DNA of 64,000 nt from Terriglobus saanensis SP1PR4 (GTDB taxonomy: Bacteria > Acidobacteriota > Terriglobia > Terriglobales > Acidobacteriaceae). The position numbers and the translations under genes were made by a program. Positions 5,363 to 60,971 of the stretch are shown piece by piece (within the stretch, counting starts at the first letter, position 1; each line of letters starts with the position of its first letter). The stretch lies in contig NC_014963.1 in assembly GCF_000179915.2 (NCBI RefSeq), positions 930,001-994,000 of the forward strand, given 5' to 3'. Under the pieces are notes generated by a model. It ran no database searches. It was not told where the DNA came from and saw nothing but the letters and a program-made list of their open reading frames with translations.

Positions 5363-5402
5363 ACAATAACTTTAATATTTCCAGTTCGATGGGAATGCGT
5401 CT

Positions 5403-5437: not shown

Positions 5438-5461
5438 CCGCATGACCCTAGTATTCACGAG

Positions 5462-6712: not shown

Positions 6713-6717
6713 AGGAC

Positions 6718-7815
6718 CTACTTTGCGGCGAGAACGGTGGTGCTGCCGCCGATGCGTGTGGCGTCCGTCGGCGTGGAGAGGCCGTGGACGATGGAGGCCG
6801 GGAGATTCTTCGCGCCAAAGCGGCGGACGTAGAACTCAAGGAAAGAATAATCGCTGCTGCCGAAGTCCAGTATCTGTTCGTCCGGTGTGTAGACCTTCAC
6901 GATGGATGGATCGTCGATGGCTTTGCCGAGGAAGAGCACGCCGTCCCGAATGGTATGGCCGTTCTGAGAGTAGTTGTAGAGTGGTATGCCCTGGCGTTCG
7001 GCAAACTCAGCGATGGGGATGAGCGGTTGCAGAGCGAAGGCCTGATAGTGGATTGCGCGTTCGTGGCGGGCCATCTCCAGAGGGAAGGCTCCGCGCTCGT
7101 CGAGAGCAGCGACGGACTCCTGAAAGGTGTCTACGCCGAATTTGAAGAGAGCATCATCGGAAGAGACCACGCCTGCAGCGGTTGCAGCAACGGCGCGCCA
7201 GTAGTGGTGGTTGTTCTTTTCGCCCGCTTCGAAGGCGATCATCTTGTGGGCCGATGCGTTGATCCACTTGGTATCGCGCACGGTCTGCTCTTGATCGAGC
7301 TTGGAATCGTTGAGTAGAACAGACTCTGTAATAGCTGCTGAGCTAAGCGTCCATTCGACCTGATACCAGGCCTGAGAACTCACCTTCGGATCGTAATCGA
7401 GGAGGGCGCCAGCCTTTGCCCAGAGGTCGATCTGCTGCTGTGCGCAGGCTGCCTCCGCGTGGCTTCCCGTAGCGAGGTACTGGTTCATGCCAGCAGTGGT
7501 GCGTTTCTCAAACTGGCCGTAGATATGCGTGGCTTCCGCTTCCGCTGGGTTCACTGGGCCGTGCGACCCATTGAGATAGTGATGCGGAATGTCGATCGGA
7601 CGAGAGGGAGCGGCGACCACCGGAGATCTGAGGCAAGATCCCAAACCAGCAATGGCACTGCGGACACGGGGATCCTTCGTCGAGGGCAGCTCGGCCTGGC
7701 GCGCAGGCACATCGATCAACGAAGCGCGGGGATCGCGGACGTGCTGTGCCTGTGCGACAGAAGCGGCGGCAAGCAGACAAGCCATGCCTGCCTGTGCCCA
7801 CGGACGATTGAACAT
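6718..7815 (-). CDS. Secreted alginate lyase family (PL5) protein
   Basis: ATG at 7815 is chosen over the longer frame because it has a GGAG site upstream and gives a clean signal peptide (MACLLAAASVAQA). About 365 aa. The alpha/alpha-barrel lyase motif KNNHHYWRA, followed by LEMARHERAIHYQAFALQPL, is characteristic of AlgL-type PL5 lyases, which cleave mannuronate-rich polyuronates by beta-elimination in the periplasm. His of NNHHYW and the later Arg/His are the expected catalytic residues. The gene lies 5 nt upstream of the VWA gene and 25 nt downstream of the ATPase gene, so it is inside a regulatory ATPase/VWA operon. No alginate biosynthesis genes are visible. Confidence 0.85.
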   Translation of the reverse strand: MFNRPWAQAGMACLLAAASVAQAQHVRDPRASLIDVPARQAELPSTKDPRVRSAIAGLGSCLRSPVVAAPSRPIDIPHHYLNGSHGPVNPAEAEATHIYGQFEKRTTAGMNQYLATGSHAEAACAQQQIDLWAKAGALLDYDPKVSSQAWYQVEWTLSSAAITESVLLNDSKLDQEQTVRDTKWINASAHKMIAFEAGEKNNHHYWRAVAATAAGVVSSDDALFKFGVDTFQESVAALDERGAFPLEMARHERAIHYQAFALQPLIPIAEFAERQGIPLYNYSQNGHTIRDGVLFLGKAIDDPSIVKVYTPDEQILDFGSSDYSFLEFYVRRFGAKNLPASIVHGLSTPTDATRIGGSTTVLAAK

Positions 7816-7840
7816 GCGCTCTGCTCCTTCAGCGTTCAAC

Positions 7841-9361
7841 CTAGTTGAAGCCGCGTTTGTTGCGGTTCTTGGACTGCCACTCCTGCTTCTCCCGCTCACG
7901 CTCGCGGATCTCTTCCTGAAAACCCTGCGAGCGGTCCCTGTTCCTCTTCTCGATGGCGGTGAAGCTGCGCTCTTCCGTGCGGGAGATGCGCTTATGCGCC
8001 GTCATGCCTTCCAGAAGGAACTCGGCTGCGGAGACGAACTGCTCGGCAGCGATGTGCGCGGGCAGCTTCAGGGGCTTCAACTTTTCTGCGAGCCCCTGGA
8101 TGGTGCGAAGCTCCTTCATCGAATCCTCCGAGGAGGTTGCGTCGGAGAGCTGCACGGTACCGCCGAGGTTGAACCACTCCTCGATCTGCTGCGTGTTCAC
8201 GTCGGCGAAGTAGCCGTCGAAGGTGTGGGCGACGGCGGTGTTGATGATCTCGTGGACGACCTTATCCGCGCCGCGCATCTCGCCTTCGTACTCAAGCTCG
8301 ATCTTGCCTGTGATGCCGGGGAGAGCGGTGTAGATATCGCCGATGCGGGGAACCGCGGTGCTTTCTCCATGAAGGAGCGCGCGGCGTTCGGCGTTCGAGA
8401 TCACGAGTTCCAGTGTGGAGATAGGAAGGCGCTGTGATACGCCGCTACGCTTGTCGACGCGCTTTTCTTCGCGCGCGGTGAAGGCGATCTGCTCCACGAC
8501 TTCGCGGATGTAGCGTGGGATGTGCAGATCGAGACCTCCGCGCTTAGACCAGGCTTCCTGCTCCGTGACGGAGATGGCTTGATCGAGCGAGTCGAGATAG
8601 TGTGTGCGAATCTCCGAACCGATGCGATCTTTCAGAGGGGTCACAATCTTGCCGCGCGCCGTGTAGTCTTCCGGGTTCGCGGAAAAGACGATGGCGACGT
8701 CGAGTTCGAGGCGGACGGGGTAGCCCTTAATCTGGACGTCGCCCTCCTGCATGATGTTGAAGAGCGCGACCTGGATCTTGCCTGCGAGGTCGGGGATTTC
8801 GTTGATGGCGAAGATGCCGCGATTGGCGCGGGGCAGCAGGCCGTAGTGCATGGTGAGTTCGCTGGAGAGGATTTCGCCGGAGCGCGCCGCCTTGATGGGA
8901 TCCACATCGCCGATGAGATCGGCCACGGTGACGTCCGGGGTCGCGAGCTTTTCGACATAGCGCTCTTCGCGTCCCATCCATGCGATGGGGGTGTCATCGC
9001 CCATGGTGGCTATCAGGTCTCGGGAGTACTTGCTCAGCGGAGCGTAGGGATTGTCCCGCAACTCGGAGCCGGCGACGTAGGGGGCCTTTTCGTCCAGCAG
9101 CGTGGTGAGCGCGCGGAGGATGCGGCTTTTTGCCTGGCCGCGCAGGCCGAGCAAAATGAAGTTGTGTTTGGAGAGGACCGCGTTCACGATCTGGGGTGTG
9201 ACGGTGTCTTCGTACCCTACGATGCCGGGGAAGATGGCTTCTTTGGCGCGCAGTTTTACGATCAGGTTGTCGCGCAGTTCGTCTTTAACCGAACGAGCGA
9301 CGTATTCAGGCGTCCATTCGCTTTTGCGTAGTTCGCCAAGTGTTACGGGGAGTGATTTCAT
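7841..9361 (-). CDS. MoxR/ChlI-type AAA+ ATPase
   Basis: A 506-aa protein. Walker A is GLRGQAKSR (~residue 94), Walker B is unusual with GIFAINEIPDL, that is Asn-Glu in place of Asp-Glu, sensor 1 is VFSANPEDYT, and LKDRIGSEIRTHY carries the expected arginine finger. The layout matches the magnesium-chelatase subunit I and MoxR group, hexameric ATPases that remodel partner proteins through VWA co-factors. The C-terminal ~60 residues are charged coiled-coil (EEIREREREKQEWQ). The likely partner is the VWA protein at 5462-6712. The client is unknown. The Asn could lower hydrolysis, but Glu, the catalytic base, is kept. Confidence 0.85.
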   Translation of the reverse strand: MKSLPVTLGELRKSEWTPEYVARSVKDELRDNLIVKLRAKEAIFPGIVGYEDTVTPQIVNAVLSKHNFILLGLRGQAKSRILRALTTLLDEKAPYVAGSELRDNPYAPLSKYSRDLIATMGDDTPIAWMGREERYVEKLATPDVTVADLIGDVDPIKAARSGEILSSELTMHYGLLPRANRGIFAINEIPDLAGKIQVALFNIMQEGDVQIKGYPVRLELDVAIVFSANPEDYTARGKIVTPLKDRIGSEIRTHYLDSLDQAISVTEQEAWSKRGGLDLHIPRYIREVVEQIAFTAREEKRVDKRSGVSQRLPISTLELVISNAERRALLHGESTAVPRIGDIYTALPGITGKIELEYEGEMRGADKVVHEIINTAVAHTFDGYFADVNTQQIEEWFNLGGTVQLSDATSSEDSMKELRTIQGLAEKLKPLKLPAHIAAEQFVSAAEFLLEGMTAHKRISRTEERSFTAIEKRNRDRSQGFQEEIREREREKQEWQSKNRNKRGFN

Positions 9362-9406
9362 TAATCTCGGAATCTCCTGATTTGGTGCTTCTGGAAATTA
9401 GATGTT

Positions 9407-47835: not shown

Positions 47836-49128
47836 TTGCCCGTTGAACGCCGAACCCGAGTCCGATTTTTTCTTGCCTTCTGGCTCTTCGTCCTAAGTGG
47901 CGTTGCATTCCTGGACCGCACCAATATCTCCATCGCAGGACTTCAGATCAGCCGCGAATATGGCCTCGGAAATCAGCGCCTCGGTTGGATCTTTTCCGCC
48001 TTCCTGATCGGTTATGCCGGCTTCCAGCTTCCGGCTGGTTTCCTTGCGGCCAAGTATGGCCCACGTCGCGTTTTGACGCTCGGTGTCCTGTGGTGGGGCG
48101 TCGCGACTGCGCTCACGGCAATTCTTCCCTCGGGCATTCCGCATGCGGTGGCTTTGCTTATTGCAGTGCGCTTCGCTCTGGGCGCGGGTGAAGCCGTTAT
48201 TTATCCTGCCGCAAATCAATTCGTCGCTCGATGGGTACCGCAACAGGAGCGCGGTTTCGTCAACGGCCTGATCTTTGCCGGAGTAGGCGCAGGCAGCGGA
48301 CTCACACCGCCTTTGCTCACGTGGATCATCGTTTCGCATGGCTGGCGCGCGGCCTTCTGGTTCTCGGCGGTCATCGGCATTATCGCGGGTGCGGTATGGT
48401 GGATCTTCGCGCGTGATACTCCTGAAGATCACCCCGGTGTTTCCCGTTCGGAACTCAAGGAGATCCACGCTGGCCTGACACTCGATGCTTCGGACCTTCC
48501 GGGAGCAGCCCCCACCCAGACACGGATCTCGTGGCGTGCCATCTTTGCGCGCAGGGATCTCGCGGCCCTGATGGCCGGGTACTTCGCCTTCGGATATATC
48601 GCCTGGGTCTTCTTCAGTTGGTTCTTTCTCTACATGGCGCAGGTCCGAGGCTTCGATCTTAAGGCCAGCGCGCACTACGCCATGCTCCCGTTTCTCTGCA
48701 TGACCATCTTCAGTCTCGTCGGTGGCTGGCTCTCGGATCGCCTGACGCGCCTGTATGGTCTGCGTGTCGGTCGGTGCTATCTGGCCTCTGTTTCGCTGTT
48801 CTTTACGGCGATCTTCCTTGTCCTCGGGTCGCAGGTGCACAGCCCCCAGTTGGCTGGAATTATCCTCGCTGGCGGTGCCGGTGCGCTTTATCTCTCACAG
48901 AGCACCTTCTGGTCGGTTTCCGTGGATATCGCGGGCCGCAGTTCGGGAGTCTTCTCTTCACTCGTCAACATGGGCGGACAGATCGGCGGAGCCATCACTG
49001 CCTCGCTCACGCCTTGGATCGCACAGCGTTTTGGCTGGACGACCTCCTTCGCCGTGGCTGCCGCGCTGGCACTGGTCGGATCTCTTTGCTGGCTTGTAGT
49101 GCACCCGGAGCGTGCGCTGGAAGTCTAA
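47836..49128 (+). CDS. MFS transporter, anion:cation symporter type
   Basis: A 430-aa protein with 12 predicted helices, started at TTG 47836 because AGGAG lies 6 nt upstream and the first helix begins soon after. Helix 1 has VAFLDRTNISIAGLQISREY, the ACS-family signature, and the 2-3 loop has AAKYGPRRVLT. Members carry hexuronates, glucarate, phthalate and other organic anions with H+. Uronates fit the metabolism seen here, but the substrate is not shown. Divergent from the mannosidase gene. Confidence 0.88.
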   Translation: MPVERRTRVRFFLAFWLFVLSGVAFLDRTNISIAGLQISREYGLGNQRLGWIFSAFLIGYAGFQLPAGFLAAKYGPRRVLTLGVLWWGVATALTAILPSGIPHAVALLIAVRFALGAGEAVIYPAANQFVARWVPQQERGFVNGLIFAGVGAGSGLTPPLLTWIIVSHGWRAAFWFSAVIGIIAGAVWWIFARDTPEDHPGVSRSELKEIHAGLTLDASDLPGAAPTQTRISWRAIFARRDLAALMAGYFAFGYIAWVFFSWFFLYMAQVRGFDLKASAHYAMLPFLCMTIFSLVGGWLSDRLTRLYGLRVGRCYLASVSLFFTAIFLVLGSQVHSPQLAGIILAGGAGALYLSQSTFWSVSVDIAGRSSGVFSSLVNMGGQIGGAITASLTPWIAQRFGWTTSFAVAAALALVGSLCWLVVHPERALEV

Positions 49129-49180
49129 ATCAGGAAGATCGACTTGCGTTATAGGGCTCAAGTGTGGTGCCGTAGGTACT

Positions 49181-50440
49181 ATGTCCTATCTGGTCAGACC
49201 ATGTTGTCTCGCAATGGCGTTGCTGTGCAGCCTGACGACGACACGCGTCGTGGCCCAGGCTGCTCCGGTCGAAGTGCTGACGGCACCCGCTGAAAACGCG
49301 CCTCCTGCGGAAGCGGCAGCCACTTCGCCGGGGGTGCAGCCTACCTCCGTCATCCGTGGATTTTCATTTGCAAGCGAGACCGACGCCTCTTCGGTTCAAC
49401 ATGCGTCCGACGTCTCCCTTCCGCCCGGCCATCCTGAGATCATTCTTTTTTTCGACACGGTTTCGCCTATCCGCGGGCCAGTCGAGTTTCGGTACCGTCT
49501 GAACGACTACGACGGCGACTGGACCGTCACACTCAACCGGAGCGCGCACTACCGGAAACTTACGCCGGGCGACTACACCTTTGAGGTACAGGCACGCCTC
49601 CCTGGGCAGGCCTGGGGAAAACAGGTGGCGGTGCTTCCCGTGGTTCAGCAGCCGTTTTTCTACCAGACGTGGTACTGCTATCTGCTCTTGCTTTTGGGTC
49701 TCATCGCGCTTGCAGCGCAGCTTCTGCGCCAGCGCGACCAGTTGCTTAAAGGGCAGATGGGCATGGTCCTGGAAGAGCGCAACCGCATCGCCAGCGACTG
49801 CCACGACACGCTCATGGCTGGCTTCGCTGCCATCTCCTGGCAGCTCGAAGCTACGGCGAAGCTCTTCCGTGACGCGGGTACTGTGGACACCCCGGCAGCA
49901 CAGTCCTGCGAACTTGCACGCAGCATGGTCTCGCACTGTCAGGCAGAAGCGCGTCGTATCATCTGGGACCTTCGCGACTCAGAGGAACTCACCAACGTTC
50001 TCTCGCAGGCTCTCTCTCGCGCCGTTACCGCGCATCGCCTGCGCGACAGCATCGAGACCACCTTCGAGATCGAAGGCGAGGAGATCCCCATCGCTCCCGG
50101 CGCCGTGCATCACCTCGTCTGCATTGGTCAGGAGGCGGTCACCAACGCTATTCGTCATGCACATTCCTCTACAATCGCCATCCGTCTGAGATATGAAAGC
50201 GATGCTCTCAATCTTTCGATTCGGGATAACGGCCGCGGCTTTCAGATCTCCGATCCAGCCACGCGGACCGGCCACTTCGGCATTCCGGTGATGGAAGAAC
50301 GCGCGCGTAAACTCGGGGGTACGCTGCGCCTGAATACTTCCGTCGATTCAGGCACGGAAGTCTCGGTTACGGTCTCCTTCCAGGCCATTAATCTGCCCGC
50401 GACGCAGCAGCATTACGTCGTTCCGTGGATCGGTGTTTAG
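49181..50440 (+). CDS. NarL-type sensor histidine kinase with Y_Y_Y domain but no propeller
   Basis: ATG 49181 opens a signal sequence and gives 419 aa. A periplasmic Y_Y_Y beta-sandwich (VEFRYRLNDYDGDWTV, HYRKLTPGDYTFEVQA) precedes one membrane helix (YCYLLLLLGLIALAAQLL). The HisKA_3 region has EERNRIASDCHDTLMAGFAA with the phosphoacceptor His, and the ATPase domain has GQEAVTNAIRHA and IRDNGRGF. Larger relatives have two 7-blade Reg_prop propellers in front; these are missing. The partner regulator follows 77 nt downstream. Confidence 0.9.
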   Translation: MSYLVRPCCLAMALLCSLTTTRVVAQAAPVEVLTAPAENAPPAEAAATSPGVQPTSVIRGFSFASETDASSVQHASDVSLPPGHPEIILFFDTVSPIRGPVEFRYRLNDYDGDWTVTLNRSAHYRKLTPGDYTFEVQARLPGQAWGKQVAVLPVVQQPFFYQTWYCYLLLLLGLIALAAQLLRQRDQLLKGQMGMVLEERNRIASDCHDTLMAGFAAISWQLEATAKLFRDAGTVDTPAAQSCELARSMVSHCQAEARRIIWDLRDSEELTNVLSQALSRAVTAHRLRDSIETTFEIEGEEIPIAPGAVHHLVCIGQEAVTNAIRHAHSSTIAIRLRYESDALNLSIRDNGRGFQISDPATRTGHFGIPVMEERARKLGGTLRLNTSVDSGTEVSVTVSFQAINLPATQQHYVVPWIGV

Positions 50441-50517
50441 CCGCACGCGGGAACTCGGGGCGCGACAAGTTCCTCTCACTCCATGTAAAACTACAGTTAC
50501 ATGAGGCAACGCAGCGA

Positions 50518-51141
50518 ATGAAGCAGATCAAAGTCCTTCTTATTGAGGACCATTTCCTCGCACGCATGGCGTTGCAATCGGTTCTCGCAGGCCACGCACA
50601 GATCAGAATCGTCGGAGAAGCCTCCGATGGCGAACAGGGAATCGAACTCTACCGTTCTCTTTCCCCCGACGTCGTCGTGCTCGATCTCCGCCTGCCGCGT
50701 GTCTCCGGCTTCGATGTCATCACGCTTCTTCGCAAAGAGCCGCGCCCCGCGCGCATCGTCGTTCTCTCCAACTACCACGGGTCGGAAGATATCTACCGTG
50801 CCGTTCGCTCCGGTGCGATGGCATATCTCACCAAAGACGCCAGCGGCGAAGAGCTTATCAACGCCATTCAGAACGTCGATCGCGATCTCCGCTATCTTCC
50901 GCGCGTTGCACTGGATCGTCTCGCGGAACGTATGCCAGCGGTTGAACTTACGCCGCGTGAGAGTGAAGTTCTTATCTGCATCACGCAGGGAAGATCCAAC
51001 CGCGAGATCGCGGAGCAGCTTCGCATTGCGGAGAAGACGGTTCGCATTCATGTCTCTTCGGTACTCGATAAGATGGGAGCACGCGACCGTACTCAAGCCA
51101 CGATCTACGCGCTGCAACGTGGCCTTGTTCACTTCGACTAA
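50518..51141 (+). CDS. NarL/LuxR-type response regulator
   Basis: A 207-aa protein from ATG 50518. The receiver has IEDHFLARMA acidic residues, phosphoacceptor Asp56 in VVVLDLRLPRVSG, Ser/Thr in VVLSNYH and Lys in AYLTKDASG. The C-terminal LuxR helix-turn-helix is LTPRESEVLICITQGRSNRE with IRIHVSSVLDKMG-like recognition helix (TVRIHVSSVLDKMG). It pairs with the upstream kinase. The TonB receptor gene 376 nt downstream could be under its control. Confidence 0.92.
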   Translation: MKQIKVLLIEDHFLARMALQSVLAGHAQIRIVGEASDGEQGIELYRSLSPDVVVLDLRLPRVSGFDVITLLRKEPRPARIVVLSNYHGSEDIYRAVRSGAMAYLTKDASGEELINAIQNVDRDLRYLPRVALDRLAERMPAVELTPRESEVLICITQGRSNREIAEQLRIAEKTVRIHVSSVLDKMGARDRTQATIYALQRGLVHFD

Positions 51142-51223: not shown

Positions 51224-51516
51224 CTTTTTCAAGGGCAGAGTTATTTTGTACGTTCTTCCGAATGGAGGAATTTACAAAAAGATATGTTCCCCGCATCGTA
51301 AAGAGCCAATTTTCTACCCGCTTGCAATAGGTCGAATAGCCTAGCTACGTCACTGGCAACTGACTGATGACAGGTAAGCTACAAATATTATCAAATCGTA
51401 ACAATCCAAAAGTTCATCGCCCGCAGTCGGAGATTTTCATCCGATGTCGAGGCAAAGCTCCAGACATTTCCTGTTTCGCTTTCCCGGCTATGCCGAGGTC
51501 AAAGGAGTCTTATAAC

Positions 51517-54500
51517 GTGAAAAAAATTCTCGTCTGTTGTGCTGTCCTGTTCTGCGCCATGGTAGGCCGCGCTCAGGTCGCAAATAATACCTCGCTTGTC
51601 GGCACAGTCACTGATCCTTCAGGTGGCGTGGTCGCAGGTGCAAAGGTCACCGCGATCAACGAAGGCACCAAGGTCTCTTACCCGGGTACAACGAACTCGG
51701 AAGGTTACTACTCCATCCCCTTTCTTCTTCCTGGTACGTACGACGTCACTGTCGAAACGCCAGGTTTTCAGAAGACTGTTACCAAGGGAATCATCGTCAC
51801 CATCAACGTCGCGGTTCGTTCGGACGCTGCTTTGAAGGTCGGTTCGGAGAATACCGAAGTTACTATCTCTGCTGATAATCCCCCACTCTCGACCGACGAC
51901 GCGCTTCTCGGTGAGACGGTCAGCCAGCAGCAGGTTCGGGATTTACCGACGGTTGGACGCCAGGCTCTTCAGCTCGCCGCCACGGCATCGAACATCGTCG
52001 TCAACGGTACGGCCCTTACCGGTAACCCTCCCGGCAACCGCGCTTCCGGCGCCGGCAGCCGTTCCATCACGAACAGCATCTCTCTCGATGGCATCTCGAT
52101 CATGAACAACCTGACCTCGACTGCCTTCATCGTGCCCAACACCGACGCTCTCGACGCAGTTCAGACACAGAATGGTAATTACACCGCGCAGTATGGTGAC
52201 TACCTCGGCGTTCACGTCAATGAAGTGACGAAGTCCGGTACGAACAAATTCCATGGCACGGCTTACGATTACATTCAGAACGACGGTTTCAACGCGCGCA
52301 GCTGGCTCCAGGCAAAGGGTTCGCCTAACTCCGAGCTTCGCTATAACCTCTTCGGCGGCGTAGTGAGTGGTCCCATCTGGAAAGATAAAGCCTTCTTCCT
52401 CGGTTCTTATGAAGGCCTCCGTCAGCACGGCGCTACCTATACCGTGAACCAGACAGTTCTTACGGCACGGATGCACACGGGCGACTTTGGCGAGCTTTGC
52501 ACCGTCTTCAGCGCTGCAGGTCTTTGCACCACGGGGAACCAGCTTTTCAATCCTGTTACCCACGCGCCCTATTTGAACAACAAGATTCCCGTGGACCCAA
52601 TTTCCGCGAAGATCCTGCCGTACCTCACCCTTCCTACCTCTGCGGGCGTGATCAATAACTGGTCCGGAAATCTTCCCACTGCGGTTAACTCGAATTCAAA
52701 CCTCGAGCGTGTGGATTACAACCCCACCGACAAGATGCGTTTCTTTGCCCGTTATGCGCAGCAGTCGGTGAACAACTTTGCGCAGGCAGTCAATCTGGTC
52801 AATACCGCTTACACCACATCGCGTGGACGCAACGGCGCTGTTGGTTATACGCATATCATCACGCCGAAACTCGTCAATGATCTTCATCTTGGCTTCAACG
52901 TTGTCTACACGCAGATCGTGAACCAGCAGTATCAGACGAATCAGGCAAATGCAGGATCTGCCCTGGGAATCCCCGGATTTACCGCAGACGTCGATAGCGG
53001 CAATCCCGGTCTCGTCGATATGAGCATCACGAACTATCAGGGTGTAGTTCAGAATGGAACCAACTGGTTCCAGGAAGACAGAACACTCACCCTTTACGAC
53101 CAGATCAACTACACACTCAACAAGCATGCACTGATGGCAGGTGTGAGCTTCCGTAAGTTCACGATCGGACGTAACGCAGCAAACTTGTCTCGCGGCCAGT
53201 TCACATTCGATCAGACTCTGATGACGGATCCAGCCGCAGCATTCGTCGCAGGTTTCCCCACAGGTCTCTCTTCTCCCCTCTTCCAGGTCAAGGGTTCAAT
53301 CGGCCAGTGGCGTGACGGATTCTTTGCTCAGGATAACTGGCAGGTTACGCAGAAGTTCACCTTGCAGTATGGTTTGCGCTACGAACTCCCGCAGGTTGCT
53401 TATTCCTTAAACGGCGTAGGGCGTATCCTTGATCCAACGTGGACAAGCCTCTACCCTGCCGCTGGTGGAACTAATCCTGCAAACGCGACGAAATATCCCG
53501 GGTTCAAGTTCAGCGGACCCCAGCACTCCAACATCAGCCCGCGCGTTGGTTTCTCGTATCGCGTAACGGACAAGACGGTCATCCGCGGTGGCGGCGGTAT
53601 CTACTACAACGCCAACCAGATGAACAGCTACACGCTTTCGTCCACCAACTATCCATACTCGGCCAACGTTACGAACTCCAACGCTGCCAGTAACATCAAG
53701 TTCACGTTGGATAATCCTGCAATCCCTGCGACCACCGCTTTCGGTCTTGCTACCTCGCCCTACAGCGCCTTTACGGTCGATTACAATCTTCCGACACAGC
53801 GTATGTATCAGTGGAACGTAGATCTCGGACAGGAAGTATGGCATAACGGCGGCTTTGAGCTTCAGTACCTCGGTTCGAAGTCCCTTCATCTCGACGAGAG
53901 CTACTACCCCAATCAGCCTGGCCCATCGACTGCATTCTCCAACGCAAACCGTCCTAATCCGAATATCGGTAATATCCGCGTAATTCACAACGATGCCATC
54001 GCAACCTATAACGGTTTGACCGCAATTCTGCGTCAGCGCATGTTCCACAACCTCACAGCGAACCTGAGCTATACGTGGTCACACGCTCTGGACGAGTCTG
54101 ACAGCTCGAACGATGGCGGTACGGCTATGTGGCAGGGTCATCTCAAGCTGGATTACGGTAACTCCAGCTACGACATCAAAAACCGCTTCGTTGGTACCGT
54201 CACCTATGCCTTCCCGACACTTGAGCATCACAACGCACTCATTCGCCAGACCCTCGGCGGATGGCAGGCAAACGCGATTGTCGATCTTCGGAGTGGATCG
54301 CCGCTCAACCTTACCCTCAGCACGGACTACGCGCATGTCAACGGCGTAGGCACGCAGCGTCCTAACTTCGTTCACGTGCCGCTGGCTTCGACTTGCAGCC
54401 GTGGAACGGTTACGGGAACAGGCGGATCAACAAGCAACAACTGCTTGGACAAGACTGCTTTTGCAGCACCGGCAAATGGCACTTTTGGCAATCTGCATCG

Positions 54501-54744
54501 CAACGCGATTTACGGTCCTGGTGCCACAAACACGAATGCTTCGCTCTTCAAGAACTTTCCAATCTGGGAGCAGGTCGCCCTGCAGCTCCGCGTCGAGGCT
54601 TTCGATGTCTTCAATCATCCGAATCCCGGCAATCCGAATACAAACATTCAGAGCCCCTCGTTCGGATTCATCACGGGGCCCAACACGAACTTCACCTCGA
54701 CGGGATCTCGCATCCTGCAAATCGCTGGCAAGATCAACTTCTAG
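51517..54744 (+). CDS. Oar-like TonB-dependent receptor next to the PLP cluster
   Basis: GTG 51517 is chosen, with AAAGGAGT 8 nt upstream and a signal peptide directly after (KKILVCCAVLFCAMVGRAQ); 1,075 aa. The carboxypeptidase-regulatory domain (LVGTVTDPSGGVVAGAKVTA) is followed by the plug (VRDLPTVGRQALQLAATASN, NSISLDGISIMNNL) and a barrel ending in SRILQIAGKINF with terminal Phe. It is preceded by a two-component system and followed, after a terminator, by the exported PLP-enzyme cluster. It may import the substrate of that cluster; this is inference from position. Confidence 0.88.
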   Translation: MKKILVCCAVLFCAMVGRAQVANNTSLVGTVTDPSGGVVAGAKVTAINEGTKVSYPGTTNSEGYYSIPFLLPGTYDVTVETPGFQKTVTKGIIVTINVAVRSDAALKVGSENTEVTISADNPPLSTDDALLGETVSQQQVRDLPTVGRQALQLAATASNIVVNGTALTGNPPGNRASGAGSRSITNSISLDGISIMNNLTSTAFIVPNTDALDAVQTQNGNYTAQYGDYLGVHVNEVTKSGTNKFHGTAYDYIQNDGFNARSWLQAKGSPNSELRYNLFGGVVSGPIWKDKAFFLGSYEGLRQHGATYTVNQTVLTARMHTGDFGELCTVFSAAGLCTTGNQLFNPVTHAPYLNNKIPVDPISAKILPYLTLPTSAGVINNWSGNLPTAVNSNSNLERVDYNPTDKMRFFARYAQQSVNNFAQAVNLVNTAYTTSRGRNGAVGYTHIITPKLVNDLHLGFNVVYTQIVNQQYQTNQANAGSALGIPGFTADVDSGNPGLVDMSITNYQGVVQNGTNWFQEDRTLTLYDQINYTLNKHALMAGVSFRKFTIGRNAANLSRGQFTFDQTLMTDPAAAFVAGFPTGLSSPLFQVKGSIGQWRDGFFAQDNWQVTQKFTLQYGLRYELPQVAYSLNGVGRILDPTWTSLYPAAGGTNPANATKYPGFKFSGPQHSNISPRVGFSYRVTDKTVIRGGGGIYYNANQMNSYTLSSTNYPYSANVTNSNAASNIKFTLDNPAIPATTAFGLATSPYSAFTVDYNLPTQRMYQWNVDLGQEVWHNGGFELQYLGSKSLHLDESYYPNQPGPSTAFSNANRPNPNIGNIRVIHNDAIATYNGLTAILRQRMFHNLTANLSYTWSHALDESDSSNDGGTAMWQGHLKLDYGNSSYDIKNRFVGTVTYAFPTLEHHNALIRQTLGGWQANAIVDLRSGSPLNLTLSTDYAHVNGVGTQRPNFVHVPLASTCSRGTVTGTGGSTSNNCLDKTAFAAPANGTFGNLHRNAIYGPGATNTNASLFKNFPIWEQVALQLRVEAFDVFNHPNPGNPNTNIQSPSFGFITGPNTNFTSTGSRILQIAGKINF

Positions 54745-54857: not shown

Positions 54858-55616
54858 ATGTTCGCAACACGTAAAGTTCTCGCTGCCGCCGTTTTCGCCG
54901 CAACCGCTTGCACCCTTGGCCTCACGCTCCGTGCCGATACGCCTCTCACCGCCGCCGATTACGAGCGCGATCTCCCACGCATGATTGAGGCTTACCGACA
55001 CGTTGAGGCGGCCAGCGTATCCGACGCCGAAGAGCAGATCCTCCACGAAAAGCACTACATGTCCCACAAGATGCAGGCCATCTTCCCCACGAAATTTGCA
55101 GGGGCCGCGCTCACTGTCCTGCTCAAAAAAGAAGAGAACAAAGATCCGAACGCCCTCTCCGGCATGCTTTCCGCGATCGACGGCGGTGGCCCCGGCTCGG
55201 TCTACGTGATGAAGATTGAAGACGGCGCAGATATCGCCGGCATGGGCGGCCTGATGGGTACCTCCATGTTTGCCCGCGGCTTCTCCGGGGCTGTCGTGGA
55301 CGGCGGCGTGCGCGATCTGCCGCAGCTCAAAAAGATCGGCTTTCCCGTCTACGCCCTCGGCCCCGTGCCTTCTACCTCCGTCGGCCACTATCGTTTCGGC
55401 GGCATGAACATTCCGCTCGAAGTCGATGGCACCCATGTCGAGGCTGGGGATATCATCGTGGCCGATCAGGATGGGGTTGTCGTTGTGCCGCGTAAGAACG
55501 CCGCAGAAGTCCTCATCAAGGCCCAGCAACTCGACAATTCAGAGCACTCCATGTATCCCTTCATCGAGAAGTTTCACTCCATCGTGGAGGCCGTGAAGCA
55601 GTTTGGCCGCATCTAG
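54858..55616 (+). CDS. Exported RraA-family protein (HMG/CHA aldolase-like)
   Basis: A 252-aa protein with a signal peptide (VLAAAVFAATACTLGLTLRA), unusual for this family. The RraA fold motifs are clear: GGLMGTSMFARGFSGAVVDG with GVRD (the Arg and Asp that bind metal and substrate) and GHYRFGGMNIPLEVDG, DGTHVEAGDIIVADQDGVV. Enzymatic members are class II pyruvate aldolases cleaving 4-hydroxy-4-methyl-2-oxoglutarate or similar keto acids; others inhibit RNase E. Periplasmic location rules out the RNase role. It opens the exported PLP cluster. Confidence 0.85.
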   Translation: MFATRKVLAAAVFAATACTLGLTLRADTPLTAADYERDLPRMIEAYRHVEAASVSDAEEQILHEKHYMSHKMQAIFPTKFAGAALTVLLKKEENKDPNALSGMLSAIDGGGPGSVYVMKIEDGADIAGMGGLMGTSMFARGFSGAVVDGGVRDLPQLKKIGFPVYALGPVPSTSVGHYRFGGMNIPLEVDGTHVEAGDIIVADQDGVVVVPRKNAAEVLIKAQQLDNSEHSMYPFIEKFHSIVEAVKQFGRI

Positions 55617-55639
55617 CCCACGTTTTGTGGCGCTATAGC

Positions 55640-55702
55640 ATTTGACCTATCCGAGCGGCGGTCTTTCGACCCATGACAATGCATGGTCGAATGCCGTCAA
55701 AT
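55640..55702 (+). promoter_or_regulatory. Nested inverted repeat between RraA-type and first PLP gene
   Basis: Outer arms atttgac (55640-55646) and gtcaaat (55696-55702); inner arms ttcgacc (55665-55671) and ggtcgaa (55685-55691). The 200-nt gap (55617-55816) has no gene. It may be an RNA structure tuning the following genes, a terminator or an operator. Confidence 0.4.
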
Positions 55703-55816
55703 AGCCCCATTCATCACCCACTCATCTGTAGCGCTGTAGCTTGCACGATTTGATCTTGGTCCTGCCGCTCCGTCGCTTCGCAGACACGTCCCCGCAGTCT
55801 TCTCCCGGAGCCTATC

Positions 55817-57118
55817 ATGTCCCGTTTAAATCCCGCAGAGTCCAGTCCTCTTTCCCGCCGCAGGTTCTTCCAGTGGACCAGCTCCCTGGCAGCGACCCTC
55901 GGCGTTGTACCTCTGCTCCAATCGACTGAGGCCCTGGCCGCTCCTGCAGCCGCCGTCTCCGGTGAGGACTACTACGCAAAGCTCGGCGTCGAGAAGATCA
56001 TCAACGCAGCCGGAACTTACACCACGCTTACGGCTGCGTGCATGCCCGCTACGGTCGTCGCAGCTGTTCAGAAGGCCGCTCTGCATCCCGTCCGTCTGCA
56101 CGATCTCCAGGTCAAATCCGGCGAGTACCTTGCGCAGCGCCTGAAGTGTGAAGGCGCTCTTGTGACCTCGGGCGCTTCCGGAGCCATCACCCTGGCCACT
56201 GCGGCCTGTATGCAGGCCGCAAACGGCAACCGCCCCGTCGATCTGCCGCAGAAGGCAGAAGGCCTCAAGAAACAGGTCATCGTGCAACGCGCACATCGGT
56301 ACGGCTACGATCACGCCATCTTCCTGACCGGCGCACGCATTACGGAAGTCGTCACGCTCGACGAATACAAGGCAGCCTGCGCCAAGGGCGACGCCGTGAT
56401 GACGAACTTCTTCAACGCAGCTGAAGAAGAAGACGGCATCGCCGCGACCGCGCAGATCGGCCGCGAAGAGTGGCTCCGTATTGCACACGAACACAACATC
56501 CCCTGCCACATCGACGCCGCCGCAGATATGCCTCCCCTCTCTAACCTCTGGAAGTACACCGGTATGGGCTTCGACCTCGTCTCCTTCTCTGGAGGCAAGG
56601 GCATCCGCGGACCGCAAAACGCAGGTCTTCTCCTCGGCAAGAAGAAGTACACCGATCTCGCTCACCAGAACAACAACCCCGGCGAAGGCGTTGGCCGCGG
56701 CATGAAAGTCGCCAAGGAGCAGATCGTCGGCATGGTCGCTGCCATTGACTGGGTCCTCTCCCACACGGAAGAGTCGATGCAGGGCGACTACCAGAAGCGC
56801 GCCGACCTCATCGCCTCGATGGTCAAGAATGTTCCCTCCGTCAAAACGGAGACCGTTGTTCCCAAGATCGCGAACCACGTTCCACATCTGCTCATCCGCT
56901 TCGATCCCGCCGTTACGGGAATCACTACGAGCGAACTCGTCAATCGACTTCGTACCGAGCAGCCCTCCATCGAACTCAATCCCAACACCGGACACAAACC
57001 CAACCAGGGCATCCCGTCCGATGCGAATACTCTCGTCGTCGGTGTCTGGATGCTTCAGCCCGGCGAAGACGCCATCGTAGGCCGCCGCATCCGCGCCGCC
57101 CTCACCAAAAAAGCTTAA
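55817..57118 (+). CDS. Tat-exported SelA/DgaE-like PLP-dependent enzyme, first paralog
   Basis: A 433-aa protein with a twin-arginine signal (LSRRRFFQWTSSLAATLGVV). After residue ~50 it has the SelA-like fold-type I domain: EKIINAAGTYTTLTAACMPA, CEGALVTSGASGAITLATAA, an acidic HIDAAADMPP and the PLP lysine (Lys261) in FSGGKGIRGPQNAGLLLG. Cytoplasmic relatives include D-glucosaminate ammonia-lyase (DgaE) and EF0838. The C-terminal domain holds HLLIRFDPAVTGITT. Tat export lets the folded, cofactor-loaded enzyme reach the periplasm. RidA-type gene follows after 25 nt. Confidence 0.88.
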   Translation: MSRLNPAESSPLSRRRFFQWTSSLAATLGVVPLLQSTEALAAPAAAVSGEDYYAKLGVEKIINAAGTYTTLTAACMPATVVAAVQKAALHPVRLHDLQVKSGEYLAQRLKCEGALVTSGASGAITLATAACMQAANGNRPVDLPQKAEGLKKQVIVQRAHRYGYDHAIFLTGARITEVVTLDEYKAACAKGDAVMTNFFNAAEEEDGIAATAQIGREEWLRIAHEHNIPCHIDAAADMPPLSNLWKYTGMGFDLVSFSGGKGIRGPQNAGLLLGKKKYTDLAHQNNNPGEGVGRGMKVAKEQIVGMVAAIDWVLSHTEESMQGDYQKRADLIASMVKNVPSVKTETVVPKIANHVPHLLIRFDPAVTGITTSELVNRLRTEQPSIELNPNTGHKPNQGIPSDANTLVVGVWMLQPGEDAIVGRRIRAALTKKA

Positions 57119-57143
57119 TCAACTTCGGAAGGAAAACTACACC

Positions 57144-57647
57144 ATGGAAATGAACTCCCGCAGAGATCTCCTCAAGAATGCCGCCGCCGCAGCCGTTGCC
57201 GTCACCGGCGCAGCCGCCCTTGTTCCGTCTGCGATGGCCCAGGCCTCCAAAGCGCTGCCTCTTGAAAAGAAGTCCGTTCCTCCTCGCGTTGTGAACGACA
57301 AGCCGACCGGCACACCGCCCAAGGTTCCTCTCTTCTCGTCGATCATCACCTACGGCAACCTGGTCTTCCTCGCAGGCGTTGGAGCCCACTTCACGGGAAC
57401 CATCGAAGAGCACACGAAGCACGTTCTTGATGAGCTCGAAAGCAATCTGCAGAAGGCCGGTTCCTCTATGGAGAAGGTGCTCAAGGTGAACGTCTACCTG
57501 AACGACCTCGCCGACTTCCAGCGGATGAACACGATGTACCAGGGCCGCTGGGGCGCTGTCCCTCCCGTGCGCACCACCGTTGCCGTTGCAAAGGGCGGCG
57601 TCCCCGGAGATTCGCTCGTTGAGATCGACTGCATCGCTTTCATCTAG
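57144..57647 (+). CDS. Tat-exported RidA-family imine deaminase
   Basis: A 167-aa protein; a twin-arginine signal (NSRRDLLKNAAAAAVAVTGA) is followed by a RidA/YjgF domain. SIITYGNLVFLAGVGAH, VLKVNVYLNDLADFQRMN, PPVRTTVAVA with the carboxylate-binding Arg143, and LVEIDCIAFI with the Glu of the active site are all kept, so imine/enamine hydrolysis is likely. RidA proteins clear reactive 2-aminoacrylate-type intermediates of PLP enzymes in the cytosol; an exported version between two exported PLP enzymes is striking. GGAAGG precedes the ATG. Confidence 0.92.
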   Translation: MEMNSRRDLLKNAAAAAVAVTGAAALVPSAMAQASKALPLEKKSVPPRVVNDKPTGTPPKVPLFSSIITYGNLVFLAGVGAHFTGTIEEHTKHVLDELESNLQKAGSSMEKVLKVNVYLNDLADFQRMNTMYQGRWGAVPPVRTTVAVAKGGVPGDSLVEIDCIAFI

Positions 57648-57704
57648 CATTGCTGCAACACGCCGCATGGCCGCAACGAACTCATGATTCAGAAAGGCAA
57701 CATC

Positions 57705-59312
57705 ATGTCCCTCTTCCGCAATGCGAGCTGGTCCAGGCGCGATCTTCTCAAGCAGACCGGCATGCTTTCCGCAGCCGCTGCGACTGCACCACTCTCTGCC
57801 GCTGCCGCAACGATGGCCAAGCCGACCGGTCCCGACCACGTCACCATGACGAGCACGGATGCCGACAATCTCTTCACACGCATCGGCGTGCGTCCCATCG
57901 TGAACGCACGTGGTACGTACACCATCATCTCCGGTTCGCAGTCTTTGCCTGAAGTGAAGAAGGCCATGTTCGAGGCCTCTCACTACTACGTGCAAATGGA
58001 CGAGATGATGGCAGGCGTGGGTGCGGAGATCGCCAAGCTCATGGGCGCTCCCAGCGCCATCGTGACCTGCGGTTGCGAAGCCGCCATCGCGCTTGCCACG
58101 GTTGCCTGTATCGCCGGCACTGATCCCGAGCGCTCGCAGTCTCTGCCCTACGTCAAAGGCCGCAATCAGGTCATCATTCCTACCTATTCGCGTAACCAGT
58201 ACGACTTCGGCGTCCGCATGTCCGGCCCCGAAATCGTTGAGGTCGACACCGAAGACCAGCTCCGGGCGAAGATGTCCGAGCATACCGCGATGATCTACAT
58301 CATCTCCGGCCCGCGCGCCTTCCAGGAGCCGCTCTCCATCAAGACTGTCTGCGCCATCGCGAAGGAAAAGAACGTTCCCGTCTTCGTCGATGCCGCAGCA
58401 GAAGAGCCGCTTGTTCCCAACATCCATCTCGCAGCCGGTGCTACTTTCGTGGCCTACTCGGGTGGCAAGTGTATGCGTGGACCGCAGGCTGCCGGCGTTC
58501 TGCTTGGCCCCTCGGATCTCACGAGGGCCGCTTTCTGGAACGCCGCTCCCCATCACAACTGGGGCCGCGCGCTCAAGGTCGGTAAAGAAGAGGCGATGGG
58601 CATGCTCGCCGCGGTACAGCAGTGGTACAAGCGCGATCACGATGCAGAGCAGAAGCAGTGGCTTGCCTGGGACAACTACATTATCGACGCGCTCAAGGGC
58701 ATCCCGTCGCTTACTTCGAAGATCAACATGCCGGACGCGGACCTCTCCAACCGCGCTCCAACCATCGACATCATGTGGGACGCGGAGCAGGTCGGTATCA
58801 CCGGAACGGAACTCGTCGAGATGCTCGACAAGGGATCGCCGCGCATCCTCGTTGCAGGTGGCTCGGGCCATCGCCCCGACATGATGCAGTCCTCCGTCGG
58901 CATCATGCCGTACATGATGCAGCCAGGTGACTACAAGATCGTTGCCGCTGCGCTCTCGAAGTATCTGCGCAACCCCGGCAAGCATGCGAATCCTCCCGTA
59001 CCGACAGGAACTCTGGCGAACGTTGCTGGCACGTGGAACGTCACGGTCAACTTTACGCGCGGCACCGGCCAGCAGCAGTTTGTTCTTACACAGGATGAAG
59101 CATCGATCAGCGGCGAACAGAACGGCGAGCTCTTCAAAGCACAGATGCGCGGAAAGGTCGTTGCCGATCACGTCACGCTCATGAGCTCCATGAACGCGAA
59201 CTATTCCAACATCCCCTGGACCTTCACAGGCGTCGTCTCCGGCAGCACTATGTCGGGCGATGTAAGGATGGGCGAGTACGGCGCCGCAACTTTCACGGCA
59301 AGCAAAGCGTAA
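57705..59312 (+). CDS. Tat-exported SelA/DgaE-like PLP-dependent enzyme, second paralog, with extra C-terminal beta domain
   Basis: ATG 57705 (AAAGG upstream) gives 535 aa; an in-frame ATG at 57684 is less likely. Twin-arginine signal WSRRDLLKQTGMLSAAAATA. The SelA-like domain has FTRIGVRPIVNARGTYTIIS, APSAIVTCGCEAAIALATVA, PVFVDAAAEEP and the PLP lysine (Lys255) in YSGGKCMRGPQAAGVLLGPS. Residues ~430-535 are an added beta-rich domain (LANVAGTWNVTVNFTRGTGQ, FTGVVSGSTMSGDVRMGEYG) of lipocalin-like character that the first paralog lacks. It may bind ligand or the cell surface. The two paralogs could form mixed oligomers or treat different substrates. Confidence 0.88.
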   Translation: MSLFRNASWSRRDLLKQTGMLSAAAATAPLSAAAATMAKPTGPDHVTMTSTDADNLFTRIGVRPIVNARGTYTIISGSQSLPEVKKAMFEASHYYVQMDEMMAGVGAEIAKLMGAPSAIVTCGCEAAIALATVACIAGTDPERSQSLPYVKGRNQVIIPTYSRNQYDFGVRMSGPEIVEVDTEDQLRAKMSEHTAMIYIISGPRAFQEPLSIKTVCAIAKEKNVPVFVDAAAEEPLVPNIHLAAGATFVAYSGGKCMRGPQAAGVLLGPSDLTRAAFWNAAPHHNWGRALKVGKEEAMGMLAAVQQWYKRDHDAEQKQWLAWDNYIIDALKGIPSLTSKINMPDADLSNRAPTIDIMWDAEQVGITGTELVEMLDKGSPRILVAGGSGHRPDMMQSSVGIMPYMMQPGDYKIVAAALSKYLRNPGKHANPPVPTGTLANVAGTWNVTVNFTRGTGQQQFVLTQDEASISGEQNGELFKAQMRGKVVADHVTLMSSMNANYSNIPWTFTGVVSGSTMSGDVRMGEYGAATFTASKA

Positions 59313-59322
59313 ATAGACAAGA

Positions 59323-59351
59323 AGGCCCGGCAGACACACTCTGCCGGGCCT
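59323..59351 (+). terminator. 11-bp hairpin after the second PLP gene
   Basis: Arms aggcccggcag (59323-59333) and ctgccgggcct (59341-59351) pair perfectly, loop 7 nt; no strong T run. The amidohydrolase gene starts 60 nt later, so only partial termination is plausible. Confidence 0.6.
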
Positions 59352-59411
59352 CACTTCTTCGTACGACAGTCAAAGCAAAACGTAGTACACCCTGTTCCGA
59401 GAGGCTCACAC

Positions 59412-60971
59412 ATGAACGTCAAACCCTTCGGCCGCGCCGTTCTCGCTAGCGCGGTTCTGTGTAGCACAGCACTGATTGCGCAAGCGCCTATGCCCGCAGC
59501 GCAGCCCGGTCCCGGCGCAAATCCCGCGGCGCCTACCGCTACTCGCCGCATGGGCATGCCCATGAAGCCCAACACGCTTCCCTATGACCTCATCCTTGCG
59601 GGCGGACACGTTGTCGATGCGAAGAACCACATCGACGGCATTAAGGATGTGGGCATTAAGGACGGCAAGGTAGTTACCGTAGGTACGAACCTCAAAGCCG
59701 CCGACGCGCTCAAGACCATTGACGTCAAAGGCATGTGGGTCTCGCCTGGCCTCATCGATCTTCACACGCACGTCTACACGGGCACCGGTGAAAAGGGTTC
59801 CTACGCGGGTGACAACTCGGTCTATCCCGACGGCTTCACGCTGCGCAACGGCGTGACTACCATCGTCGATGCAGGCTCTTCGGGTTACAAGAACTTCGAC
59901 GACTTCAAAGACAAGATCATCGACCGCTCCATCACACGCGTCCTCGCCGAACTCAACATCGTCGGCTCCGGCATGCGCGGTGGCAAGTATGAAGACAATC
60001 TCGATGACATGGACGGTAAGGCCACCGGCGATTTCGCTCTCAAGTATCCCGGTGTCGTCGTCGGCATCAAGAGCGCGCACTTCAATGGTCCCGAGTGGAA
60101 GCCCTATGAGCAGGCGGTTATTGCGGGCAACATCGCGAACATCCCCGTCATGATCGACTACGGTGCACGCCGCATCGAACGTCCTCTCTACGACCTCGTC
60201 ACCAAGTACCTCCGTCCCGGAGATATCTATACGCATTGCTTCGCTGGCAACCGCGGCGAGCAGGATGCAGAGACGGGCGGTCCCTCCAAGGCGCTCATCG
60301 ACATGCGCAAGCGTGGCATCTACTGCGATATCGGTCACGGCGGCGGCTCCTTCGCCTTCTCCGTCGCCGCTCCGATCATGCGCGCCGGATATAAGCCTGA
60401 CTCCATTTCGACCGATCTTCACATCACGTCGATGAACGGTTCGATGAAGGACATCCTCAACGTCGCGGACAAGTTCCTTCTCATGGGAGAGACCATCCCG
60501 GAAGTTCTCACGCAGATGACTGCGAACCCCGCGCACGAGATCAAGCAGGACCAGCTCGGCAACCTCTCGCCAGGCGCAATCGCGGATGTGGCGGTCTTCT
60601 CCGTGGAGAAGGGCAACTTCGGTTTCTTTGACATGTTTGGCGCAAGGGCCGTCGGTCACGAGAAGCTCATCTGCGAACTTACGATCAAGGATGGAAAGAT
60701 CGTCTATGACCTCAACGCCATCGAGTTCGACAACTGGGACGCACCGAAGCACACCTCGGACCCAGCCATGACGCGTCATTGGTCCACCTTCTCCGAGCGT
60801 CCCTTTGGCGTCCAGCAGTCCGCGCGCTGGCCTGTATGGATTCCGCCATCGCAAAAGAACACGCACGAGGAAGGACCGCCGGATCGCTACAACATGCGCG
60901 CTCCCGCAACCACCCCGGAGACCGCAAAGCCCAACCCGGGCGATCCGAACACCCCTGCTCCCCCAAAATAA
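59412..60971 (+). CDS. Exported amidohydrolase/deacetylase-family metallohydrolase
   Basis: A 519-aa protein with a signal peptide (VLASAVLCSTALIAQA). The amidohydrolase barrel shows the binuclear metal site: His118 and His120 in IDLHTHVY, bridging Lys220 in GIKSAHFN, His275 in YTHCFAG, His309 in GHGGG and Asp335 in STDLHITS. It resembles the Atu3266/EF0837 group, deacetylases that in Enterococcus stand next to a SelA-like PLP enzyme and an aldolase. It would hydrolyse an N-acyl or ester bond in the periplasm, feeding the PLP enzymes upstream. The C-terminus is Pro-rich. Confidence 0.88.
   Translation: MNVKPFGRAVLASAVLCSTALIAQAPMPAAQPGPGANPAAPTATRRMGMPMKPNTLPYDLILAGGHVVDAKNHIDGIKDVGIKDGKVVTVGTNLKAADALKTIDVKGMWVSPGLIDLHTHVYTGTGEKGSYAGDNSVYPDGFTLRNGVTTIVDAGSSGYKNFDDFKDKIIDRSITRVLAELNIVGSGMRGGKYEDNLDDMDGKATGDFALKYPGVVVGIKSAHFNGPEWKPYEQAVIAGNIANIPVMIDYGARRIERPLYDLVTKYLRPGDIYTHCFAGNRGEQDAETGGPSKALIDMRKRGIYCDIGHGGGSFAFSVAAPIMRAGYKPDSISTDLHITSMNGSMKDILNVADKFLLMGETIPEVLTQMTANPAHEIKQDQLGNLSPGAIADVAVFSVEKGNFGFFDMFGARAVGHEKLICELTIKDGKIVYDLNAIEFDNWDAPKHTSDPAMTRHWSTFSERPFGVQQSARWPVWIPPSQKNTHEEGPPDRYNMRAPATTPETAKPNPGDPNTPAPPK

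Follow-up and report, generated by a model that had tools for sequence, protein, structure and literature searches.

Why would a bacterium send enzymes that depend on pyridoxal 5'-phosphate (PLP), together with a RidA-family protein, out of its cytoplasm? The question is raised by a five-gene cluster of the acidobacterium Terriglobus saanensis SP1PR4, whose genome (G000) is a single contig of 5,095,226 bases. The window analysed here is a stretch of 64,000 nucleotides of that contig (G000:C1:930001-994000), and the cluster occupies window positions 54858-60971, encoding in order an RraA-type protein, a first PLP protein (PLPa), RidA, a second PLP protein (PLPb) and an amidohydrolase (AH). To our knowledge PLP lyases and RidA are regarded as cytoplasmic, the general role of RidA being to hydrolyse the imines that PLP lyases release. 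We propose, with a probability of about 0.62, that the cluster encodes exported enzymes which deacetylate and deaminate oxidised amino sugars, and that it supplies the lower steps of an oxidative route, running outside the cytoplasm, for N-acetylhexosamines (N-acetylglucosamine, GlcNAc, and/or N-acetylgalactosamine, GalNAc).

The argument begins with the export signals. All five genes lie on the forward strand, and open reading frame (ORF), Pfam and NCBIfam matches bear out the places and families given to them in a first-pass annotation of this DNA, which had also seen twin-arginine translocation (Tat) motifs on PLPa, RidA and PLPb and ordinary signals on the other two. That observation is confirmed, and its interpretation is partly supported. 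A motif-plus-hydropathy script, used in place of SignalP or TatP so that all signals are called by motif, finds SRRRFF in PLPa (55817..57118), SRRDLL in RidA (57144..57647) and SRRDLL in PLPb (57705..59312), each followed by a hydrophobic stretch, and plain hydrophobic, Sec-like signals in the RraA-type protein (54858..55616) and AH (59412..60971). With cleavage sites placed by eye, the probable Tat signals of PLPa, RidA and PLPb span 55817..55942, 57144..57239 and 57705..57809, respectively; the start of PLPb at 57705 is taken from its orthologues, the longest ORF beginning at 57684. The NCBIfam model TIGR01409 (TAT_signal_seq) matches RidA at 22.3 bits against a cut-off of 16.7, and is not among the listed NCBIfam matches of PLPa or PLPb.

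The same signals recur in relatives. Among the copies tested within 80 named loci, which include relatives in Terriglobus, Edaphobacter and Granulicella, the script called a Tat-like signal in 20 of 20 PLPa, 35 of 36 RidA and 74 of 79 PLPb proteins (one PLPb skipped). Paired arginines are visible by eye in all but one of the five PLPb copies that were missed, the exception being locus L165, and no sequence in either PLPb alignment (of 21 and 46 sequences) departs from Arg18-Arg19. RraA copies were Tat-like in 0/20 cases and hydrophobic in 18/20, and AH copies Tat-like in 8/33 and hydrophobic in 32/33 (one skipped). As a control, a similar, not identical, test was run in 36 related loci on longest ORFs that do not belong to the cluster; it gave 32 Tat-like signals in 363, some of them truly Tat-like and two belonging to RidA paralogues; this control is rough because longest-ORF starts were used. 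Set against it, the family counts argue that the conserved export signals are not a matter of chance, and Tat transport of the cofactor-loaded enzymes is plausible. Some genomes sit in both locus sets, so that the export counts overlap with the residue counts given below.

The cluster is also conserved as a unit. Once six stand-alone paralogues are set aside, 13 of the 14 remaining family loci have a match to every one of the five genes, nine of them in the order of the window. At 1e-20, a PLPb-like protein is encoded by 44 of the 396 genomes from the phylum, and in the stretches of the 80 named loci PLPb is accompanied by a match to RidA in 35, to AH in 32, to a TonB-type receptor in 29 and to RraA in 20. 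RidA, PLPb and AH are found together in seven loci from alphaproteobacterial metagenome-assembled genomes, in two of which (L118 and L135) both RidA and PLPb carry Tat motifs. The neighbours in L118 include rhamnonate, galactarate and glucarate dehydratases and KdgD, all above cut-off. In L118 and L135 (~4400-9400) the operon comes after genes for a TonB receptor, a hydroxylase-like protein and membrane proteins, a group that by eye resembles an iron-uptake set.

That the catalytic residues of these proteins are intact had been claimed before, and this holds for the lysines of both PLP proteins, Arg143 of RidA and the AH set, with one correction: the PLPb lysine given as Lys255 is Lys262 if numbering begins at the first ATG (57684), and 255 if it begins at the equivalent of 57705, where most family orthologues begin. 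In alignment rows that include the query and are partly redundant, the lysine is conserved in 33 of 33 for PLPa (Lys261) and 115 of 115 for PLPb. By its predicted model (pLDDT 88), PLPb has a DgaE/SelA-like fold with the PLP lysine in place; the top match in the PDB is 7lc0, D-glucosaminate-6-phosphate ammonia-lyase (DgaE; E=1.7e-24, TMt 0.86, identity ~24%). The model ends in an all-beta C-terminal domain of ~95 residues (449-541) for which Pfam gave no match; this part was all of PLPb that was matched in G156, a distant genome.

RidA (PF01042, 70.4 bits against a cut-off of 27.3; TIGR00004, the Rid family detoxifying hydrolase model, 66.3 against 106.25 and thus below it) retains Arg143 in 57 of 58 rows, the remaining row having a gap, and Glu160 is also conserved. 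A protein of this kind is the expected partner for a lyase that releases an enamine or imine. AH exceeds the cut-off of NF006689 (PRK09237 amidohydrolase/deacetylase; 394.6 bits against 371), is a relative of 2ogj and 8je0, and keeps His118, His120, Lys220, His223, His275 and Asp335 in 57 of 57 rows, a set (HxH, Lys, His, His, Asp) that we take to be the metal-site residues.

Membership of AH in an amidohydrolase/deacetylase family would also suit an exported set that degrades N-acyl-D-amino acids or beta-hydroxy amino acids, derived for example from peptidoglycan or peptides, with no oxidation of sugars, and so would RidA, which handles imines of PLP lyases in general. The relative 2ogj, which we take to be Atu3266, was reportedly first seen to be weakly active on N-acetyl-D-serine and is said to act best on acetyl-(R)-mandelate. 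The first-pass annotation had named the substrate as an N-acyl amino acid or an amino-sugar acid. The second branch is favoured here because the cluster is linked to homologues of N-acetyl-D-hexosamine oxidase (NagOx) and to Tat-signalled lactonases; once that linkage emerged the N-acyl amino acids were demoted to a rival substrate, and this linkage, a transporter resembling the D-galactonate transporter DgoT and the sugar-acid context of L118 together make them quite unlikely.

An oxidase of one homologous group adjoins the cluster in four family loci (L042, L053, L055 and L058), and the one in L055, which has FAD_binding_4 and BBE domains, matches NagOx (7zzk) at 1.5e-141 over nearly its full length. 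NagOx oxidises GlcNAc at C1 to give the lactone, and GlcNAc and GalNAc are its preferred substrates, with reported apparent kcat/KM values of 6.4e5 and 9.3e5 M-1 s-1, respectively (PMC9299179, PMC9850908). In the same reports its authors noted homologues in Acidobacteriales and called the biological function unclear (PMC9299179, PMC9850908). Seven-bladed lactonases flank the oxidase, with PF10282 found in the frames scanned (in L055, and two in L091), and paired arginines stand near the start in all 21 listed lactonase rows, as judged by eye. Homologous, exported-looking proteins of 350-380 residues, with no Pfam match, lie beside lactonases at L091:6926-7978 and L049:1467-2609.

The association extends beyond these loci. 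A PLPb-like match at 1e-60 was found in 67 of 300 family genomes, 41 with the long form (at least 51% identity; two gene fragments, in G409 and G623, are included) and 26 with short-form homologues (at most 40% identity) that were set aside, two of the 26 carrying the oxidase. The long form is thus present in 41 of the 300 genomes, the oxidase in 44 and both in 37 (Fisher p=1e-35, uncorrected for relatedness and inflated). Because that value ignores relatedness, the fairer figure comes from within the genus of T. saanensis, where a hand count finds the oxidase in 13/13 PLPb carriers and 0/6 non-carriers. Of the 37 genomes with both genes, 22 have them within 20 kb of each other, 8 have them on one contig at a greater distance and 7 have them on separate contigs. 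The distance between the low ends of the two is 1.6 kb in G453, G496, G516 and G575, and in L134 and L139 the oxidase, the lactonase-type protein LAC2, PLPb and the TonB-type receptor stand in a row.

In the reaction order that we infer, the TonB-type receptor would let glycan pieces into the periplasm, where an N-acetylhexosamine oxidase, whose gene adjoins the cluster in many relatives and lies apart from it in T. saanensis, would turn C1 into a lactone, and the Tat-signalled lactonases would open this to N-acetylhexosaminate. Sec-exported AH would take off acetate to leave the hexosaminate, the Tat-exported DgaE-type PLP enzymes, of which there are two perhaps for different epimers, would eliminate water from the 2-amino-3-hydroxy acid, and Tat-exported RidA would convert the enamine/imine to 2-keto-3-deoxyhexonate and ammonia. 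The DgoT-like transporter, of the major facilitator superfamily (MFS), would import the keto acid, leaving 2-keto-3-deoxygluconate (KDG) kinase and 2-keto-3-deoxy-6-phosphogluconate (KDPG) aldolase to finish, and RraA may cleave part of it outside the cytoplasm. We hold more tentatively, at somewhat less than an even chance, the stricter version in which the whole pathway from oxidation to RidA is periplasmic, the oxidase is co-transported with the Tat-signalled lactonases and a nitrogen-free keto acid is all that enters the cell. What the sequences themselves show is the gene content, the conserved linkage, the export signals, the conservation of catalytic residues and the fold predicted for PLPb; the substrate, the sequence of reactions, the periplasmic place of the oxidase and the fate of the product are proposed on that basis.

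Extracytoplasmic deacylation, ammonia elimination and imine hydrolysis, as the first-pass annotation envisaged, fit the sequence evidence. Its last step, cleavage of the keto acid in the periplasm by RraA, is unsupported, because RraA is matched in only 20 of the 80 loci and the acidic residue of the related aldolases is mostly replaced by Gly. The protein (PF03737, 120 bits) has Arg152-Asp153, present in 37 of 37 rows, and Gly131 at the place of the Asp of 3noj, a 4-hydroxy-4-methyl-2-oxoglutarate/4-carboxy-4-hydroxy-2-oxoadipate (HMG/CHA) aldolase, the rows showing Gly in 33, Asn in 3 and Asp in 1. It therefore misses the HMG/CHA aldolase set, which comprises this acidic residue and the Arg-Asp pair of 3noj and in which the acidic residue is presumably essential, and its candidacy as a proven periplasmic aldolase was rejected for that reason. 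According to a 2016 paper, either of two motifs is present in most RraA homologues, which probably act as pyruvate aldolases (PMC5065237). Import of the keto acid by the DgoT-like transporter, with KDG kinase and KDPG aldolase then acting on it in the cytoplasm, would end the pathway just as well as cleavage by RraA.

Several observations weigh against the proposal, and they concern the PLP enzymes, the oxidase and the rest of the genome. Membership of PLPa and PLPb in the DgaE family was rejected because the curated cut-offs are missed: TIGR01437 (DgaE) gives 171.1 and 159.7 bits, respectively, against 385.3, and NF047797 gives 117 and 137.3 against 600. Second among the matches to the PLPb model, by a small margin, is Cap15 (8t7j; E=3.1e-24), and the sequence of PLPa is closer to Cap15 (6.9e-25) than to 7lc0 (7.6e-21). 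Cap15 is O2- and PLP-dependent and is reported to act on a beta-hydroxy-alpha-amino acid (PMC7497351). Glucosaminate, or a deacetylated N-acetylhexosaminate, is likewise a beta-hydroxy-alpha-amino acid. One or both PLP proteins could then work in the manner of Cap15, using O2 for the oxidative decarboxylation of a sugar-derived substrate of this class to a carboxamide, rather than as ammonia lyases, and a precedent is described in the oxygenating PLP enzyme PvdN, which is exported by Tat. Against this, the RidA partner matched in 35 of the 80 loci points to the need of an enamine- or imine-releasing lyase, and 7lc0 is, if narrowly, the top fold match of PLPb; we consider the Cap15-like alternative improbable.

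The oxidase poses a different difficulty. No N-terminal signal was seen on the oxidase homologues, so that periplasmic oxidation needs co-transport or some other route, and one way out may be that in some loci the oxidase is moved as a complex with the flanking Tat-signalled lactonases. A small Tat partner encoded after the oxidase (L058, L055) was considered and rejected, the ORF in question being a shortened LAC2 protein, and the idea of co-transport consequently draws solely on the flanking lactonases. The LAC2 frames of L042, L053, L055 and L058 are 150-279 residues long against ~380-400 elsewhere, and may have decayed. In alphaproteobacterial locus L123 the copy is adjoined by a GMC oxidoreductase and a Tat-like gluconate-dehydrogenase-subunit-3 partner, an arrangement that by analogy would resemble transport of the oxidase with a lactonase. 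The oxidase is also found without long-form PLPb in seven genomes and PLPb without the oxidase in four, and in many distant loci, mostly from Bryobacterales and other Acidobacteria, PLPb has no match to AH or RidA in the stretch examined.

The genome of T. saanensis encodes two copies of the oxidase, one of them (G000:C1:2063196-2064764) in a lactonase-oxidase-lactonase (LAC1-OX-LAC2) set with a TonB-type receptor at ~2.06 Mb, which lies ~1.08 Mb from the window cluster. This oxidase matches 7zzk over nearly its full length (E=2.6e-165), and its HCYED and GGSCY motifs, with both covalent flavin adenine dinucleotide (FAD) residues, align with those of NagOx. In NagOx a His and a Cys are reported to be the covalent FAD residues and Leu251 to tune acceptance of the N-acetyl group (PMC9850908); a hand count puts Phe at the place of Leu251 in the T. 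saanensis oxidase, a further point on the unfavourable side. On the favourable side, at 14-15 kb from the oxidase set lie a KDG-kinase-like gene (L191:12665-13942), with best NCBIfam matches below cut-off, and the only PF01081 (KDPG-type) aldolase of the genome, with the eda model above cut-off; the same region encodes glucuronate isomerase, a KduI-type isomerase (above cut-off) and a GH20 protein. A Tat-like RidA is encoded near the uronate genes on the reverse strand (L191:7893-8345, ~2.042 Mb). Five GH18 matches were found in the genome, and these too speak for the proposal, as does GH20.

The separate location of the oxidase would also suit a situation in which the same enzymes act on another N-acetylated or amino sugar acid, such as N-acetylgalactosaminate, an N-acetylmuramate derivative or an amino uronate, the oxidase linkage reflecting a shared amino-sugar regulon only. 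NagOx is reported to accept GalNAc as well as GlcNAc, and the presence of two PLP enzymes suggests more than one epimer; no muramate- or uronate-specific gene was found among the recurrent neighbours scanned, the single-locus neighbours being annotated in part, and we regard this alternative as unlikely. A last set of unfavourable points concerns the need for the oxidative route. A canonical NagA (TIGR00221, 321 bits, above cut-off) adjoins GH20 in T. saanensis, which also has two NagB-like genes, with a weak match below cut-off marking a third, and a canonical GlcNAc kinase route has been predicted in another acidobacterium (PMC6252331). In favour of the proposal, growth on N-acetyl-D-glucosamine is reported for the T. 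saanensis type strain, along with N-acetyl-beta-glucosaminidase and chitobiase activity; chitin and chitosan are not hydrolysed (PMC3570800). Since NagA is encoded and the canonical route is predicted in a fellow acidobacterium, growth on GlcNAc does not require a new route.

The conserved unit extends beyond the five genes to which the first-pass annotation had confined it. Upstream on the forward strand it takes in genes for the DgoT-like transporter, for the two proteins of a two-component system and for a TonB-type receptor. The MFS transporter (47836..49128; Pfam MFS_1, 214.9 bits), whose homologues adjoin the cluster in other family loci, has DgoT (6e9n, E=4.3e-39) as its closest solved relative and is, on this similarity, probably the inner-membrane importer of the sugar-acid product. 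A sensor histidine kinase (49112..50440; Y_Y_Y, HisKA_3 and HATPase) is followed by a LuxR-type (GerE) response regulator (50425..51141), and of the 14 non-paralogue family loci 12 have a match to both. The kinase, of ~440 residues, is without a propeller; in several relatives, for example L043-L045, L047 and L048, a propeller-bearing version of ~1050 residues occupies the same place, and shorter kinases are also seen in L042, L049, L051, L054 and L056. The TonB-dependent receptor-like outer-membrane protein (51367..54744; CarboxypepD_reg and OMP_b-brl_4), matched in 13 of the 14 loci, is probably the substrate gate, as far as its domains indicate.

Related gene sets occur elsewhere. A second pair of Tat-signalled PLP protein (29% to PLPa) and Tat-signalled RidA is encoded in T. 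saanensis by ORFs 9195 and 10612 of L041 (G000:C1:3671501-3691500). Similar PLP, RidA and AH sets adjoin the main cluster in L049, L056 and L144, and L138 has the PLP protein and AH with no RidA match. At L039 (G000:C1:1650416) and L040 (G000:C1:3848187) there are Tat-signalled paralogues of PLPb (52-54%) and PLPa (54%) that stand alone, no cluster partner being matched nearby.

Such a pathway was not described in the titles and abstracts searched on Tat-dependent or periplasmic RidA, PLP enzymes, glucosaminate deaminase, lactonase and Acidobacteria, subscription literature lying outside the search. A glucosaminate deaminase has been predicted in Cupriavidus, and export is not mentioned in the accessible text of that report (PMC2842291). 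If the proposal is correct, a conserved, exported pair of PLP lyase and RidA would place amino-acid-type deamination outside the inner membrane, with ammonia released in the periplasm, and Tat would have to carry folded PLP enzymes. It would also point to a way in which Acidobacteria of the soil may exploit amino sugars in oxidised form, and would provide NagOx with a physiological setting.

Parts of the cluster have counterparts in systems that are already known. Amidohydrolases of the EF0837/PRK09237 type stand beside SelA-like genes (TIGR03583/TIGR01437), the same pairing of families; in enterococci these partners are presumably cytoplasmic, whereas here both partners carry export signals and have RidA, RraA and a TonB-type receptor for company. 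With the dga system the PLP proteins share the fold of DgaE (7lc0), the active-site lysine and, presumably, chemistry on a 2-amino-3-hydroxy sugar acid. However, DgaE is cytoplasmic and acts on a 6-phosphate, phosphorylation is not expected outside the cytoplasm here, identity is ~24% and the DgaE cut-offs are missed. NagOx of Ralstonia solanacearum (7zzk) is matched over nearly its whole length by the cluster-associated oxidase, and the gene association described here offers a function for an enzyme whose own was reported to be unclear. The closest resemblance is to the ong pathway of Pseudoalteromonas, in which TonB-type uptake, the deacetylase OngB, the PLP deaminase OngC, the RidA protein OngD and KDG kinase are reported to convert N-acetylglucosaminate (GlcNAc1A) to KDG-6-phosphate, acetate and ammonia (PMC9537276). 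There GlcNAc1A is first imported by a sodium:solute symporter (SSS) family transporter, OngB and OngC (annotated as a putative D-amino acid deaminase) are predicted to be cytoplasmic, and OngD is described as of unknown role, yet needed on GlcNAc1A (PMC9537276); OngB is a deacetylase of D-aminoacylase type, subtype V (Cys/His/His) (PMC12017989). T. saanensis would share TonB-type uptake, an amidohydrolase deacetylase, a PLP deaminase, RidA and KDG kinase with this pathway, but its deacetylase, PLP and RidA steps carry export signals by motif, its importer is DgoT-like rather than of the SSS type, and its AH (NF006689/PRK09237, HxH/Lys/His/His/Asp) and DgaE/SelA-related PLP enzymes are set apart from the Ong proteins by their family descriptions. 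The cluster is thus best read as an extracytoplasmic form of the ong type of pathway, assembled from other protein families, and it makes the role of RidA, left open in the work on ong, directly testable.

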